This document shows, in pieces, positions 5,546 through 42,071 of a DNA stretch of 64,000 nt. The position numbers and the translations under genes were made by a program. Numbering within the stretch: position 1 is the first letter of the stretch; the number at the start of each line of letters is the position of its first letter. This DNA is from a virus, in the IMG/VR virus record IMGVR_UViG_3300011113_000123, positions 93,581-157,580 of that record. One strand, written 5' to 3'. The notes under the pieces are model-generated. The model saw only the letters and a list, made by a program, of their open reading frames with translations, made no database searches and was not told the DNA's origin.

Positions 5546-5911
5546 ATGGCATATTGGGGATACCATCTTCTTCTAGATTGCGCAGAACTTGACAACGCAG
5601 CAATCACGAGCTATGATACTATCTACGCTTTCACGAAGCGCCTCGTCAACGATATCGACATGGTTGCTTACGGTGAGCCACAGATCGTAAACTTTGGATC
5701 TGGTAATAAGGCTGGATACACTCTTGTTCAGCTGATTGAAACATCTAACATCGTTGCTCACTTCGTACCTGATGATGGTATGGGTGGAAACGCAATGTAC
5801 CTTGACGTTTTCTCTTGTAAGGAGTATGATGATCAAGTTGTTATCGCTTTGGTCAAGGAATATTTTGGCGCTAAGTATGTTCGTCCGAACTTCTTGACAA
5901 GACAAGCGTGA
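5546..5911 (+). CDS. speD: S-adenosylmethionine decarboxylase-like protein
   Basis: A 121-aa protein of the small prokaryotic AdoMet decarboxylase family, which makes decarboxylated AdoMet for spermidine synthesis. The self-cleaving block TSNIVAHFVPD aligns with the ESHISIHTWPE motif of bacterial enzymes: pyruvoyl-forming Ser67, His72, then Cys91 in YLDVFSCKEYD. All three catalytic residues are present, so activity is plausible. The start is fixed by an excellent ribosome-binding site (TAGGAGGCTAAC). Polyamines could neutralise packaged DNA. A perfect sigma-70-type promoter for the following tRNA lies across the 3' end. Confidence 0.8.
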   Translation: MAYWGYHLLLDCAELDNAAITSYDTIYAFTKRLVNDIDMVAYGEPQIVNFGSGNKAGYTLVQLIETSNIVAHFVPDDGMGGNAMYLDVFSCKEYDDQVVIALVKEYFGAKYVRPNFLTRQA

Positions 5912-5922
5912 CGCGGTACAAT
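5894..5922 (+). promoter_or_regulatory. Sigma-70-type promoter for tRNA-Gly
   Basis: TTGACA, 17 bases, then TACAAT. The -35 lies within the end of speD and the predicted start is only a few bases before the tRNA. Confidence 0.8.
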
Positions 5923-5936
5923 GAACAATAAAGATT

Positions 5937-6011
5937 GCGGGTATAACTCAGAGGTAGAGTGTCAGCCTTCCAAGCTGTTCGTCGCAGGTTCGAATCCTGT
6001 TGCCCGCTCCA
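5937..6011 (+). tRNA. tRNA-Gly(TCC)
   Basis: Acceptor GCGGGTA pairs with TGCCCGC, anticodon loop CTTCCAA reads TCC, T-arm GGTTCGAATCC, encoded CCA. First tRNA of the array and immediately behind its own promoter. Confidence 0.9.
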
Positions 6012-6037
6012 ACTTTCTTGACTGGTGTAAAATCACT

Positions 6038-6115
6038 ATGTCATTGATCCTCTGCAACTGGATGGCTATCTCTGCTGGCATCATGTTGTGGATTTATAAT
6101 GTTGTCTTCAACTAA
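6038..6115 (+). CDS. Possible 25-aa membrane microprotein
   Basis: A short ATG frame between the tRNA and the outer-membrane gene encodes MSLILCNWMAISAGIMLWIY plus five residues, a single hydrophobic segment. There is no convincing ribosome-binding site (GTGTAAAATCACT), so this may be chance. Its stop lies two bases before the AGGAG that serves the next gene. Confidence 0.25.
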   Translation: MSLILCNWMAISAGIMLWIYNVVFN

Positions 6116-6124
6116 GGAGTAAAT

Positions 6125-6652
6125 ATGAAGAATACAGTTATTGCGTTCGCTCTGCTGGCTAGCACTGTTGCTGCTAATGCTACAGACATCTCAAGCATTC
6201 CTTCGCGTCTGAGCCCTGCCGCTCCAGTTGCTGCGCTCGTATCTCCGCCTAAGTTTTGGGTCGGCGTCAACGGCGGTGCTTCTGTAACTAATGGTCTCAA
6301 CTCCGATTCTCCGTGGAACGTCGGTGCTGTCGCTGGATATAACTTCTTGAGCTTTGGTCCAGTTTCTGTCGGAGCGGAAGCCGCATATGACTACGTCAAG
6401 GGTGGTACTCAGGAAGTTGGTGGCAATGCAGTCGCTTCTGTCGGTATTGGTTTATTCTCACCATATGCTCTCGGCGGCATTGGATATCGTTGGACCGACT
6501 TTGGTAACGAGCGTATCTGGACTGTTGGTGCGGGTCTGAAGTATTCTATCGCTCGTAATCTCGAGGTTGATACTCGTTATCGTCGTATCGAAAACTGGGA
6601 TCGCACGAATCATGATGATCGTGTAACTCTCGGCGTGAACTACAAGTTCTGA
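6125..6652 (+). CDS. Outer-membrane beta-barrel protein
   Basis: A 175-aa protein with a cleavable signal peptide (cleavage likely after AANA at residues 16-19) and a C-terminal part of alternating strands (WNVGAVAGYNF, VSVGAEAAYDYV, PYALGGIGYRW, IWTVGAGLKYSI, LEVDTRYRRI) ending in YKF, the terminal aromatic recognised by BAM. It resembles small porin/Omp25-like proteins of rhizobia. A phage-encoded outer-membrane protein could block superinfection or change surface receptors. The ribosome-binding site is AAGGAG. The next small membrane ORF overlaps its stop. Confidence 0.75.
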   Translation: MKNTVIAFALLASTVAANATDISSIPSRLSPAAPVAALVSPPKFWVGVNGGASVTNGLNSDSPWNVGAVAGYNFLSFGPVSVGAEAAYDYVKGGTQEVGGNAVASVGIGLFSPYALGGIGYRWTDFGNERIWTVGAGLKYSIARNLEVDTRYRRIENWDRTNHDDRVTLGVNYKF

Positions 6653-6771
6653 TGGCACAGGCCGCATATATAATTGCGGCTCTGCTGTTCTTGACGGCTG
6701 GGCTTATGCTTTGGATAGCATTCGGTCCAGCCGTTTTCCTTTCCTATCTAGCGTATTCGTTCATGTGCTAA
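6652..6771 (+). CDS. Small membrane protein (39 aa)
   Basis: Starts in the ATGA overlap with the outer-membrane gene and encodes 39 residues that are almost entirely hydrophobic (AAYIIAALLFLTAGLMLW, then FGPAVFLSYLAYSF), enough for one or two transmembrane helices. Coupling to the barrel gene suggests cotranslation. It stops one base before tRNA-Leu. No known family. Confidence 0.5.
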   Translation: MAQAAYIIAALLFLTAGLMLWIAFGPAVFLSYLAYSFMC

Positions 6772-6772
6772 T

Positions 6773-6850
6773 GCCCGCGTAGGCCAACTGGTTAGAGTCA
6801 AGAGACTTAAAATCTCTAAAGTGTCGGTTCGAATCCGACCGCGGGTACCA
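6773..6850 (+). tRNA. tRNA-Leu(TAA), short variable loop
   Basis: Acceptor GCCCGCG with CGCGGGT, anticodon stem AGAGA/TCTCT around CTTAAAA (TAA), T-arm GTCGG/CCGAC, A73, encoded CCA. The variable region is only about five bases, whereas leucine tRNAs normally carry a long arm. Confidence 0.8.
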
Positions 6851-6895
6851 TAGCTTTGGCTAGACCATAACGGAAGCGTAACAATAGGGGGGCCC

Positions 6896-8781: not shown

Positions 8782-8981
8782 CTTGGGTCGCAAAGCCTTA
8801 TCTGAATCGTAACACGGGTATGAAAGAGTTCGAAGATGCTCCGTCAGCCGTGAAGTACCTTGAAGACTTCACTGGCTTCAAGATGGACTACGAAATTAAT
8901 CGCAAGACTAAGGAGAGGTCCTATGGCTGGGAGCTATGTGGAAAACTCTACAAAAAGATCGAGAAATCCGGTCGCGCGTGA
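8778..8981 (+). CDS. Small hypothetical protein (67 aa)
   Basis: Begins in the ATGA overlap with the gp88-like gene. The 67-aa basic protein (MTWVAKPYLNRNTGMKEFED...) has no recognised family. Its 3' third overlaps, in another frame, the ArfA-like ORF at 8923. Confidence 0.5.
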   Translation: MTWVAKPYLNRNTGMKEFEDAPSAVKYLEDFTGFKMDYEINRKTKERSYGWELCGKLYKKIEKSGRA

Positions 8982-9081
8982 GTTGCGCACGACTAAATAT
9001 CGCGCTCGTGTAGTACGTTCGCGAAAGCAGTATAAGCGAAAGGGTCGCGTAGCTCAGCAGGATAGAGCAACAGACTTCTAA
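8923..9081 (+). CDS. ArfA-like ribosome-rescue protein, stop codon inside a tRNA
   Basis: A 52-aa basic ORF with the best ribosome-binding site in the area (AAGGAGAGGTCCTATG). Residues 15-42, RNPVARELRTTKYRARVVRS then RKQYKRKGR, follow the ArfA pattern (N-x-[IV]-x3-L-x4-[FY]-R-x-R-V-x-[KR] ... Y-x-R-K-G). ArfA recruits RF2 to stalled ribosomes. The coding frame enters tRNA-Arg at 9043 exactly between codons 40 and 41, and its TAA stop is in the tRNA anticodon arm. RNase P cleavage of the tRNA would therefore leave a nonstop mRNA ending just after the conserved motif, echoing how E. coli arfA is made from nonstop mRNA. Assignment is by eye. Confidence 0.45.
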   Translation: MAGSYVENSTKRSRNPVARELRTTKYRARVVRSRKQYKRKGRVAQQDRATDF

Positions 9082-9119
9082 TCTGTGGGTCGAAAGTTCG
9101 AATCTTTCCGCGATCACCA
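9043..9119 (+). tRNA. tRNA-Arg(TCT)
   Basis: Acceptor GGTCGCG/CGCGATC, anticodon stem ACAGA/TCTGT around CTTCTAA (TCT), encoded CCA. Overlaps the 3' end of the ArfA-like ORF. Confidence 0.9.
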
Positions 9120-10554: not shown

Positions 10555-10632
10555 CCTCTGTTAGTGTAGCGGTCAAACATACCCGCCTTTCAAGCGCGGA
10601 GATCATCGGTTCAAATCCGATACAGAGGACCA
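10555..10632 (+). tRNA. tRNA-Glu(TTC)
   Basis: Acceptor CCTCTGT/ACAGAGG, loop CTTTCAA (TTC), T-arm ATCGGTTCAAATCCGAT, encoded CCA. One mismatch in the anticodon stem. Confidence 0.85.
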
Positions 10633-38811: not shown

Positions 38812-39507
38812 ATGAAATTTGATCATGATCCCTACATTGACTTGCCTAGAGCCCGTCAAATCAATACTCCATCGGGGCGTCGCTATCAGACCCCCGATGG
38901 TAACGTATATCCTTCCATCACTACAGTCTTAGGTGATCAGCCCGAGAAGAAGAAAGCGATTGCCGAGTGGCGTGCTCGCGTTGGTGGAGCAGAAGCGAAC
39001 AAGATCAGCTCGCAGGCTGCTCGTCGTGGTACCGATCTTCATAACCTCATGGAAAAGTATATTCTAGGAGACGAGATTGATGCAAAGAAAATCATGCCCT
39101 CGACACTCGCACGTTTTCGTCCTGTTCAGAAATGTCTGGATGAAAATCTGCAACTTGTATATGCGTCTGAAACGCCGATGTTCTCAGACATCCTCCGCAT
39201 CGCAGGAACGGCAGACTTAATCTGTGAATGGAATGGCGAAGTAACAGTGGTTGACTTCAAGACAGCCACGAAGATGAAAACGCCAGAGATGATCACAGAC
39301 TACTTCATACAGGCTACAGCCTACTCAATCATGTTCGAAGAGCATACTGGCCTCGAGTGTCATCACTTTGCCATTCTCATGATATCTGACGAAGGCGAGT
39401 TCCAAGTATTCTCTGGCAAACGCAACGACTATGTTCGCCAACTGATTCGCGTAAGAGATCAGTATGAGTGGAGGAAAAGTCTTGACAACCGACGCCAGAC
39501 CGCGTAA
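38812..39507 (+). CDS. PD-(D/E)XK exonuclease (Cas4/MGME1-like)
   Basis: A 231-aa nuclease. YPSITTVLG and RGTDLHNLMEKY are the N-terminal helix blocks, RIAGTADLICEW gives the catalytic Asp, and TVVDFKTATKMK the D-x-K motif; YFIQATAYSIMF is the QxxxY motif. This is the RecB-like fold of phage exonucleases related to MGME1/Cas4. It likely acts in recombination or DNA degradation. The tmRNA promoter overlaps its 3' end. Confidence 0.75.
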   Translation: MKFDHDPYIDLPRARQINTPSGRRYQTPDGNVYPSITTVLGDQPEKKKAIAEWRARVGGAEANKISSQAARRGTDLHNLMEKYILGDEIDAKKIMPSTLARFRPVQKCLDENLQLVYASETPMFSDILRIAGTADLICEWNGEVTVVDFKTATKMKTPEMITDYFIQATAYSIMFEEHTGLECHHFAILMISDEGEFQVFSGKRNDYVRQLIRVRDQYEWRKSLDNRRQTA

Positions 39508-39510
39508 TAT
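39482..39510 (+). promoter_or_regulatory. Sigma-70-type promoter of the split tmRNA
   Basis: TTGACA, 17 bases, TAATAT, ending ~10 bases before the acceptor piece. Confidence 0.75.
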
Positions 39511-39517
39511 ATACTAA

Positions 39518-39585
39518 TGCTGAGGTCGTTGAGGCGTAAGAAATAAGCGGTTCGGACGCGGGGGCAGTACCCGCCGCCTCCACCA
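39518..39585 (+). ncRNA. ssrA: tmRNA acceptor piece (permuted, two-piece tmRNA)
   Basis: The 3' tRNA-like end of tmRNA, encoded first. GGTTCGGACGCGGG precedes a T-stem GCGGG/CCCGC, then CGCCTCC (39575-39581), A, CCA. CGCCTCC pairs with GGGGGCG at the start of the coding piece (40075-40081), rebuilding the acceptor stem of an alanine-type tmRNA. The T-loop reads GGCAGTA, not the usual TTC-type loop. The 5' boundary is estimated from the promoter. Confidence 0.8.
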
Positions 39586-39611
39586 TAAAGACTTCTCTAA
39601 CTATCCTATTT

Positions 39612-39619
39612 TATAAATA
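39612..39619 (+). promoter_or_regulatory. T4-like late promoter
   Basis: Exact TATAAATA, 20 bases before the HNH ribosome-binding site. Confidence 0.6.
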
Positions 39620-39638
39620 GGTTCGAAGGAGAAATAAA

Positions 39639-40073
39639 ATGAAACATTTACACCATATCATTCCTAAACATATGGGTGGGACTGATGAACCAGAAAATCT
39701 TATAGAACTGACTGTTGAAGAACATGCAGAAGTCCATAAGAAACTCTGGGAACAATATGGAAGATGGGAAGACAAATTAGCTTGGCAAGGTTTGGCTGGT
39801 TTGATTGGTAAAGAAGAACTAATCAAACAAATGCTAATTGAATCTGCTAAGAAAGGTAATGCTTCTAGACCTACAAATAAGGGAAAGAAGTATAACTGGA
39901 AAAAGTCTCCCAAACCAGTAGGAACTGGAGGAACTAGATGGTTTCATAATCCAGAAAATCCTACTGAAAAGAAATGTTTCAGAGCAGATCAGTCACCTCC
40001 TGATGGTTGGGTGAAAGGTCAAGGAAGAAAAGCAGTTAATCCTGGCTTAAACTTCCATAAGAAGTCTTTATGA
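39639..40073 (+). CDS. HNH endonuclease inside the tmRNA spacer
   Basis: A 144-aa HNH protein. HLHHIIPKHMGGTDEPENLI gives the HH pair and Asn, and TVEEHAEVHKKLWEQYGRW the final His. The C-terminal part (GTRWFHNPENPTEKKCFRAD, WVKGQGRK) resembles target-recognition modules of phage homing endonucleases. Strong ribosome-binding site GAAGGAG. Codons are much more AT-rich than in neighbours (AGA, TCT, AAA, CTA/TTA), suggesting a recent mobile gene. Its TGA lies one base before the tmRNA coding piece. Probably a homing endonuclease that targets uninterrupted ssrA genes. Confidence 0.8.
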   Translation: MKHLHHIIPKHMGGTDEPENLIELTVEEHAEVHKKLWEQYGRWEDKLAWQGLAGLIGKEELIKQMLIESAKKGNASRPTNKGKKYNWKKSPKPVGTGGTRWFHNPENPTEKKCFRADQSPPDGWVKGQGRKAVNPGLNFHKKSL

Positions 40074-40074
40074 T

Positions 40075-40240
40075 GGGGGCGAAATTTTAGGATCGACGGG
40101 CGTAGTAAAGTTGCGAAGAGATCGAAAGCAAATCGTAAGTGCAGCGAATGACAATGCACCTCGTTTCGCTCTAGCAGCGTAACATGCGTTCGGGGAGTAC
40201 GTGGAAACAGAAACTCCCCACTCACAATTCACAATGAGGT
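40075..40240 (+). ncRNA. ssrA: tmRNA coding piece, tag ANDNAPRFALAA
   Basis: GGGGGCG is the 5' half of the acceptor stem and GGATCGACGGG the conserved D-loop-like block. The tag frame at 40144-40182 reads ANDNAPRFALAA and stop; if resume occurs at the GCA one codon earlier the tag is AANDNAPRFALAA. A hairpin (GGGGAGT/ACTCCCC, 40192-40219) follows, as in alphaproteobacterial tmRNA. The ANDN start and the ALAA end are typical of alphaproteobacteria. The 3' boundary is approximate. Confidence 0.85.
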
Positions 40241-40245
40241 AAATC

Positions 40246-40479
40246 ATGTCTGATGATAATGACAAGCGCCTTCGTTACGATGTTCTCTTGACTGCTATTG
40301 GTATGGTCGATACGAACTACTTCCAGCTCAAAGACTCTGGTGGTAAGAATGTTCCTGTTCCTTCGACCCATGACTATATCGAAAAGGCTCAGGAGCTTTT
40401 GAAGTTCGTCGAAGGCGATGGGCTTTCTACTGCTACTAGGCAGTTGCTAAACGAGACAGACACGACTGTTGGTTGTTGA
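40246..40479 (+). CDS. Small acidic hypothetical protein (77 aa)
   Basis: A 77-aa protein (MSDDNDKRLRYDVLLTAIGM...) starting right after the tmRNA coding piece with ATGAGGTAAATC. It stops directly before tRNA-Gln. Unknown family. Confidence 0.55.
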   Translation: MSDDNDKRLRYDVLLTAIGMVDTNYFQLKDSGGKNVPVPSTHDYIEKAQELLKFVEGDGLSTATRQLLNETDTTVGC

Positions 40480-40555
40480 TCGGGGTTAGTTCAATTGGTA
40501 GAACTACGGACTTTGAATCCGTGTGTTGGTGGTTCGAACCCATCACCCCGAACCA
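40480..40555 (+). tRNA. tRNA-Gln(TTG)
   Basis: Acceptor TCGGGGT/ACCCCGA, anticodon stem ACGGA/TCCGT around CTTTGAA (TTG), encoded CCA. The only tRNA gene outside the 6-14 kb array. Confidence 0.92.
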
Positions 40556-41243: not shown

Positions 41244-42071
41244 ATGAGCTTCTATGAAAACTGTGGGAACGATAAGCCCCTAAGCATTATCGCTGGTCCT
41301 TGTGTATTCGAGTCCAAGGATCACGCAGTTGAAACTGCAACTGCGCTCAAAGAAATGTGTTACATTGTCGGAGAACAGTTCGACACACAAGTCAACTTCA
41401 TCTATAAGACCTCTTTCGATAAAGCGAATCGAAGCTCTGCGGATAGTTACAGAAGTGCAGGTTTCGACGAAGCGTTTTACGGAATGGAGGCCGTCCGTGC
41501 ACGGGGCATCGAAGTCCTCACGGACGTTCACGACGCGTGGCATTGCGAACAAGTGCAGGCTGATATCATTCAGATTCCTGCGTTCTTATGCCGCCAGACT
41601 GACCTTATCCGCGCAGCAGCAGAAAGTGGTAAGCCTGTTAACGTGAAGAAGGGTCAGTTCCTCTCGCCGCATGAGATGAAGAACGTAGCAGAGAAGCTGC
41701 GTAAGTTTGGCTGCACTCAGTACATGTTCACTGAGCGTGGCACGACGTTTGGCTACAACAACCTTGTCGTCGATATGCGCTCACTGGAAATCATGAAGCA
41801 ATACACCAACGCTGTCGTGATGGATTGCACTCACGCGGTTCAGCTTCCTGGTGGTAATGGCACAAGCTCAGGCGGGCAACGTCAGTTCGTTCCGCTTATG
41901 GCTCGCGCTGCTGTTGCTGTTGGCGTAGCTGCTTTGTTCATGGAAGTTCATAACGATCCAGACAACGCGCCAAGCGACGGTCCAAACATGATTCGTCTTG
42001 ACAACTTCGAGAAAATCCTATATGATTTAGTAGAGTTGGATTATATATCCAAGCGGAGCTTGAGGCGATGA
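41244..42071 (+). CDS. kdsA: 3-deoxy-8-phosphooctulonate (KDO-8-P) synthase
   Basis: A 275-aa protein of normal KdsA length. LSIIAGPCVFESKDHAVETA, VNFIYKTSFDKANRSS, GIEVLTDVHD, ADIIQIPAFLCRQTDL, NVKKGQFLSPHEM and VMDCTHAVQLPG are the successive phosphoenolpyruvate- and arabinose-5-phosphate-binding strands of the TIM barrel; FMEVHNDPDNAPSDGPNM closes the site. It condenses PEP with arabinose-5-P to make KDO-8-P, the first committed step of KDO synthesis for LPS. Together with LpxH- and KpsS-like genes it indicates remodelling of the host surface. Confidence 0.9.
   Translation: MSFYENCGNDKPLSIIAGPCVFESKDHAVETATALKEMCYIVGEQFDTQVNFIYKTSFDKANRSSADSYRSAGFDEAFYGMEAVRARGIEVLTDVHDAWHCEQVQADIIQIPAFLCRQTDLIRAAAESGKPVNVKKGQFLSPHEMKNVAEKLRKFGCTQYMFTERGTTFGYNNLVVDMRSLEIMKQYTNAVVMDCTHAVQLPGGNGTSSGGQRQFVPLMARAAVAVGVAALFMEVHNDPDNAPSDGPNMIRLDNFEKILYDLVELDYISKRSLRR

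Follow-up and report, generated by a model that had tools for sequence, protein, structure and literature searches.

A permuted tmRNA gene whose spacer is filled by an HNH gene

The window, by which we mean the whole stretch of DNA analyzed, covers the final 64 kb of a 157,580-bp IMG/VR virus record, and window numbering is used for its coordinates. The record has a T4-like character, with PhoH, exonuclease, and gp32-like neighbors. At the locus studied here, an HNH gene fills the intervening sequence (IVS) of a permuted (two-piece) phage tmRNA gene. Upstream lies a PD-(D/E)XK exonuclease gene (PHROG 298; 38812-39507, + strand), which served as our yardstick for vertical descent. A sigma-70-type tmRNA promoter (TTGACA-17-TAATAT; 39482-39510, + strand), found by consensus scan with 10/12 matches, overlaps the end of the exonuclease gene and is also in place in HNH-less relatives. 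The tmRNA and HNH features that follow are likewise on the + strand.

The acceptor piece (39518-39585; 5′ end approximate, delimited by sequence and by an Rfam match starting at 39524) comprises a T-arm (39558-39574), the acceptor 3′ strand (39575-39581), and an encoded CCA (39583-39585), so that its 3′ end reads CGCCTCCACCA at 39585. The IVS is exactly 489 nt long (39586-40074), has a G+C content of 0.36 vs. 0.47 in its flanks, and is inferred to be removed from the mature tmRNA. GGGGGCG then opens the coding piece (40075-40235; 3′ end approximate, also from Rfam and sequence), which carries the acceptor 5′ strand (40075-40081), a D-like loop with the T-run AAATTTTAGGA (40082-40092), and the tag reading frame (40144-40182), which encodes ANDNAPRFALAA before its stop and ends in a hydrophobic degron. 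Reassembled from both pieces, the acceptor stem has 7/7 pairs, one of them G-U. Within the IVS, the HNH homing-endonuclease gene (39639-40073) encodes 144 aa. Its stop codon overlaps a conserved UGAU just 5′ of the coding piece, making gene and IVS one unit. Downstream of the coding piece come a 77-aa ORF (40246-40479) and a tRNA-Gln(TTG) gene (40480-40555, + strand).

With cmscan, the Rfam model tmRNA_permuted (RF04321) matched 39524-40182 at 50.4 bits (E 6e-7 in 64 kb), only slightly above its cut-off of 47. The alpha_tmRNA model (RF01849) gave two separate part matches of 36.2 and 24.9 bits, both below its cut-off of 50, and the window locus did not reach a single-piece match above that cut-off; the relatives L102, L111, and L300 score 99-103 bits with this model (L300, 102.6). 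ARAGORN called 27 tRNAs in the window and no tmRNA at the locus. The first-pass annotation had described a permuted tmRNA of alphaproteobacterial type, acceptor piece before coding piece, with a complete, AT-rich HNH gene in a 489-base spacer. The permuted order held (RF04321 over cut-off, seven acceptor pairs), and the alpha-type features held at the sequence level; in its covariance-model check, RF04321 passed and alpha_tmRNA matched the two parts separately, below cut-off. The HNH claim also held but was understated, in that gene and IVS form a single unit.

Two other features of the window deserve mention. One ARAGORN call, a tRNA-SeC (TCA) at 10555-10632, has a loop (CTTTCAA) that better fits tRNA-Glu (TTC), which is otherwise absent from this 26-tRNA cluster. 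Near the tmRNA, a DAHP-synthase-family gene (41244-42071; Pfam PF00793, 210 bits) is a probable auxiliary metabolic gene.

The HNH protein and its relatives

The HNH protein matched the PHROG 655 homing endonuclease at E 1e-14, and the motif residues H5, H6, N20, H29, and H33 were invariant across 16 proteins of the family. Its Pfam HNH (PF01844) score was 21.1 bits, just below the cut-off of 21.4, and an AlphaFold model compared with the PDB gave no fold match with E < 1. A sequence profile matched the HNH domains of a group II intron maturase and of Cas8f-HNH. Because the Pfam score is below cut-off and there is no strong PDB match, we infer endonuclease activity from the motif and the family.

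The eight closest relatives of the protein in IMG/VR, 64-81% identical and including some near-duplicates, all lie within permuted tmRNA IVSs (8/8), and the nearest relatives (54-81%) occupy tmRNA IVSs of unrelated phages. After alignment and C-terminal-domain searches were added, we counted 17 contig clusters with an HNH gene in the IVS, the window included. Clusters 1-9 are the window, L020, L021/22, L023/24, L025 (the same as L102), L026, L027, L086/94, and L103/104/173/174; clusters 10-17 are L106, L107, L108, L110, L111, L113/114, L122, and L175. All are metagenomic contigs, and that of L110 begins inside the HNH gene, leaving its left side unseen. The HNH-bearing IVSs are 464-642 nt long, and the insert fills the IVS exactly in every case. 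The single case implied by the first-pass annotation is therefore only part of the picture, as the insertion family is recurrent. Rfam supports a tmRNA in the tested HNH+ loci, some below cut-off, which is likely a consequence of the long insert; support for the L023 tmRNA is weak and comes via the standard model.

The protein is modular. Its N-terminal HNH module (approximately residues 1-75) is common to many phage homing endonuclease genes (HEGs) located in other genes. The C-terminal module (GTGGxxWYHNP...GW..GQGKK..NPGLNFH) has IMG/VR matches only in or beside permuted tmRNAs, and a tblastn search of 50,697 phage records returned no match to this domain, with no isolate phage carrying it. 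At the same position, the C-terminal part is a different one in L086 and L122, and in L111 and L113 it is shortened or altered. When the locus was compared with isolate phages at the nucleotide level, only the HNH N-terminus matched, in cyanophages, and a scan of bacterial and archaeal genomes found one partial relative, in an Actinomycetes MAG.

Related genes also occur close to other permuted tmRNAs. At L109:5001-5540 and L066:1695-2340, a permuted tmRNA with a short IVS is immediately preceded, upstream of its acceptor piece, by an HNH gene belonging to this N-terminal family; the L109 gene shares the C-terminal module of the IVS-resident enzymes. A second HNH gene or fragment sits just downstream of the HNH-bearing tmRNA, on the opposite strand, at L026:2017-2268 (-) and L105:5771-6046 (-).

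Empty alleles and inferred mobility of the HNH gene

Searching with the upstream exonuclease recovered 18 contigs of near relatives at 70-93% identity. The same tmRNA lies downstream of the exonuclease in all 18, and none carries the HNH gene, not even the phages whose exonucleases are 89-93% identical to that of the window. In 17 of the 18, for which our finder resolved both ends, the IVS is 65-100 nt. Comparison with HNH-less phages, which had been proposed as a check at the outset, thus revealed the same tmRNA with short spacers. Compared with the nearest empty alleles, the window shows 87% identity in its left flank through CCA and up to 89% in the coding piece, which indicates that an IVS was swapped within an otherwise ordinary tmRNA gene. 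L015 (near 6739-6870) has an acceptor 3′ strand CCAGTCC facing a coding piece that begins GGGGGCG, a mismatched acceptor stem, unlike L002 with its matched pair CCAGTCC/GGGCTGG. The L015 mismatch resembles IVS-internal recombination or a mixed assembly.

A self-splicing intron in the spacer that carries the HNH gene would be one explanation for the insert. There is precedent for HEGs in group I introns of tmRNA genes (36/883 intron-form genes; PMC11915505). However, cmscan found no intron family at E ≤ 1 over 39400-40320, the IVS lies between natural 3′ and 5′ ends so that splicing is unnecessary, and an IVS is present at that place in HNH-less relatives too. This reading is all but excluded.

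The HNH gene and its neighbor have different histories. Between the window and L022, HNH identity is 79% and exonuclease identity 42%; between the window and L101, the values are 78% and 46%. Over 36 pairs of HNH+ phages carrying both genes, the two identities correlate at r = -0.21. Moreover, none of the 18 nearest phages has the HNH gene, yet distant phages carry versions that are 78-81% identical. Our criterion for mobility, namely patchy presence at one site, empty alleles, and descent unlike that of the neighbors, is thus met, and the discordance is likely what horizontal movement of a gene with a single type of target site leaves behind, an inference made from sequence alone.

Two rival explanations bear on this pattern. 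In the first, the enzyme is a free-standing endonuclease that merely shelters in the spacer and cuts some other neighboring target. In its favor, free-standing genes make up most of the T4 mob and seg families (PMC2988022), and L109 and L066 each have a related HEG immediately 5′ of the acceptor piece. However, HNH+ phages share little beyond the tmRNA, the exonuclease adjoins it in only some of them and at 37-46% identity, and the exact fit of insert to IVS holds without exception; we regard this explanation as unlikely. In the second, the phage has domesticated the gene, for example, to attack host or competitor ssrA (exclusion), with homing secondary. Homing endonucleases can give phages exclusion advantages, and the tRNA-like ends show conservation across phages and hosts; both points are general background, with no result of our analysis behind them. 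By contrast, patchy presence, absence from the 18 nearest phages, and 78-81% identity in distant ones are what is expected of a selfish gene, and domestication seems very unlikely.

Integrity of the tmRNA around the insert

Beyond the acceptor stem, the precursor is predicted to be closed by a second helix of 11 pairs that links the opening bases of the IVS to its closing bases. Its 5′ strand is TAAAGACTTCT (39586-39596) and its 3′ strand AGAAGTCTTTA (40060-40070), which doubles as the final HNH codons. Covariation was counted over 15 HNH+ loci, L113 being excluded because its IVS ends pair poorly. Across these loci, 100% of acceptor-stem cells are paired, with up to four Watson-Crick types per pair, and the IVS-end helix is 96% paired, with both-sided changes at 9/11 pairs. 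Taken jointly, the two helices have 97.4% of cells paired, 60 both-sided changed cells vs. 17.8 in shuffles, and a covariation of 0.652 vs. at most 0.135 with slid partners. The IVS helix is also found in 80 HNH-less alleles, in which the mean duplex energy is -14.9 kcal/mol vs. -7.4 kcal/mol for swapped partners. The HNH-bearing IVSs bring their own closing helix, which identifies the whole IVS as the exchanged unit. This refines the initial picture of a gene inserted into a pre-existing spacer: what moved includes both strands of the closing helix. The tag frame is intact in every complete HNH+ locus and mostly reads ANDN...LAA or near.

Alternatively, the insertion could have inactivated the phage tmRNA, leaving a decaying RNA gene with a parasite. 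The window's RF04321 score of 50.4, barely above cut-off, and the extra Ts in the D-like loop could be taken as signs of decay. Against this, the acceptor stems of the 15 HNH+ loci covary and are fully paired, all tag frames are intact, and the coding piece is 89% identical to the nearest HNH-less alleles. Decay is very unlikely, and we infer instead, from sequence alone, that the insertion leaves the tmRNA intact; two-piece maturation is itself inferred.

Predicted expression control of the HNH gene

Ahead of the HNH gene, a predicted RNA hairpin (39593-39633) pairs the ribosome-binding site (GGAG, 39628-39631) and carries at its apex the T4-late-type promoter motif TATAAATA (39612-39619). 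The hairpin is predicted to pair the ribosome-binding site wholly or partly in 16/16 complete leaders, and the apex motif is exactly TATAAATA in 13/16 and ACTAAATA in 3/16. The late-type promoter named in the first-pass annotation thus held as a T4-late-type motif, and its hairpin-apex position is conserved in relatives. The frequency of TATAAATA in the window is unremarkable (2 vs. 2.2 expected) and was not counted as evidence. Transcription is predicted to start near 39625, which is 3′ of the hairpin's 5′ arm. The mean predicted cost of opening the ribosome-binding site is 6.7 kcal/mol in the long RNA vs. 1.0 kcal/mol in the predicted late RNA (6.8 vs. 0.3 kcal/mol in the window). We took a late promoter within a hairpin that hides the ribosome-binding site as the criterion for I-TevI-type late control; by model prediction it is met, with expression itself inferred. 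The hairpin base and the IVS helix both use 39593-39596, and therefore the two can never be complete simultaneously.

Such control may matter because the gene and the tmRNA share a transcript. In the window and several other loci, only 1 nt separates the end of the HNH stop codon from the coding piece, and in 6/16 loci (L026, L027, L106, L107, L108, and L113) the HNH frame extends 12-40 nt into the coding piece. Where the frame runs right up to or into the coding piece, translation and tmRNA maturation would be expected to collide on one transcript, and where it enters the piece, processing would leave a stop-less message. Efficient td splicing is reported to require tight I-TevI control (PMC2988022), and by analogy, tight control of the HNH gene would be needed because ribosomes on its frame would meet the processing site. 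We infer that the conserved hairpin is likely an answer to this collision. The suggestion that an endonuclease in a discarded segment would cost the phage nothing is therefore too strong. Still, the first-pass interpretation was supported in every part that sequence can test, with cleavage and processing remaining inferred.

A LAGLIDADG gene in the same kind of spacer

A content-blind pattern scan for long IVSs returned eight stretches, three of which are true long-IVS tmRNAs: L300 (LAGLIDADG), L301 (the contig of L102, HNH), and L333 (the contig of L111, HNH). Among the rest, L302 is a short-IVS tmRNA picked up from a chance match upstream, and L299, L332, L334, and L335 are chance matches. 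L300 (IMGVR_UViG_3300050119_000050, a 61-kb contig) has a permuted tmRNA at 5676-6190 with a 502-nt IVS containing a 133-aa LAGLIDADG ORF (Pfam LAGLIDADG_3, 31 bits; cut-off 22.5) unrelated to the HNH family. Relatives of this gene were found at 28 other loci, none of them close. A LAGLIDADG gene in the same type of spacer indicates that the niche has been colonized at least twice. A likely native IVS stem, GAACGGCGC/GCGCCGTTC, lies 3′ of the LAGLIDADG gene in L300.

A proposed homing lineage dedicated to permuted tmRNA genes

The tmRNA, the insertion, the helices, the hairpin, the promoter motif, and the patchy spread are all supported at the sequence level. The most likely explanation, in which cleavage, target, processing, late expression, and homing are inferred, is that permuted tmRNA genes host a dedicated lineage of homing endonucleases, which spreads by whole-IVS replacement and relies on a promoter of its own for late expression. 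In this view, an HNH-family homing endonuclease adopted the permuted-tmRNA spacer as its home. The tmRNA precursor would be transcribed from its own sigma-70-type promoter and folded by the acceptor stem and IVS-end helix; the encoded CCA end and the 5′ end of the coding piece would be matured, and the spacer, HNH gene included, would be discarded without harm to the tmRNA. The hairpin would lock the HNH ribosome-binding site in the long RNA until, late in infection, the apex promoter gave a short mRNA lacking the hairpin's 5′ arm, from which the enzyme would be translated. The enzyme would then nick or cut a conserved tmRNA-gene sequence in co-infecting short-IVS phages, and repair would copy the complete HNH-bearing IVS into them. 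The likeliest target is the stretch around GATGGGGGCGAAATAGGATCGACG at the start of the coding piece, but this remains a guess because homing enzymes can cut at a distance.

The D-like loop contains extra Ts (TTT or more) in 8/17 HNH+ vs. 1/96 HNH-less alleles (Fisher ~4e-7), with the caveat that the loci are non-independent and the HNH-less set is mostly of one acceptor type. Purely as a hypothesis, it is possible that these Ts (in AAATTTTAGG) protect the enzyme's own allele if it cuts the D-like loop. The sole HNH-less allele with the AAATTTTAGGA loop, L238 (near 8850-9100), has a tag region like that of HNH+ L023 and could represent a lineage that lost the HNH gene. A bolder joint reading is that spacers of permuted RNA genes are a general third shelter for HEGs, neutralized by processing and independently colonized by HNH and LAGLIDADG enzymes, and that HEG+ alleles may bear a self-immunity change; the balance of evidence tips slightly in its favor.

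Relation to known systems

The first-pass annotation knew of no endonuclease described in this position, and this held within the literature that we could search: no description of a HEG in a permuted-tmRNA spacer was found in the open-licence literature searched, although absence there is not proof. The 2025 tmRNA database paper reports tmRNA HEGs in group I introns only (36/883) and lists a single tRNA gene and a single repetitive element as oddities of permuted IVSs (PMC11915505). Two-piece phage tmRNAs are already known, for example, in Melnitz (PMC9004378). Our locus indicates an annotation gap, as ARAGORN is blind to the tmRNA here and Rfam scores it barely above cut-off.

In its overall plan, the locus resembles known permuted tmRNAs (RF04321/RF01849), with acceptor piece, IVS, and coding piece in order, a rebuilt acceptor stem, and a tag frame, but the IVSs of the HNH family are 464-642 nt long and encode an endonuclease. 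The enzyme resembles the MobE-type HNH proteins of T4-like phages, whose N-terminal HNH domain is ~35% alignable over residues 2-98, but its C-terminal part is without a match in the 50,697 phage records. Placement of a late promoter inside a hairpin that masks the ribosome-binding site is established for I-TevI, I-TevII, I-TevIII, segB, and Aeh1 mobE (PMC2988022). Our system shares this arrangement with T4 I-TevI, segB, and Aeh1 mobE, as well as a modular endonuclease with a variable C-terminal part. Their locations differ: I-TevI resides in a group I intron, mobE between or within protein genes, and segB between tRNA genes, and none of them in an RNA-gene spacer.

The closest parallel is with the HEG-bearing group I introns of the tmRNA T-loop (PMC11915505), where a HEG likewise sits within a tmRNA gene, in a removed segment. 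Those introns are self-splicing and the HEGs described in them are LAGLIDADG, whereas the shelter in the window is the spacer of a permuted gene, there is no intron, and the main HEG is of the HNH family. Homing endonucleases persist where they are harmless, and introns and inteins are their textbook shelters. Since a spacer would be removed by normal RNA processing, with no need for a ribozyme or protein splicing, a plain gene can inhabit an RNA gene, and permuted RNA genes gain a testable evolutionary role as shelters.
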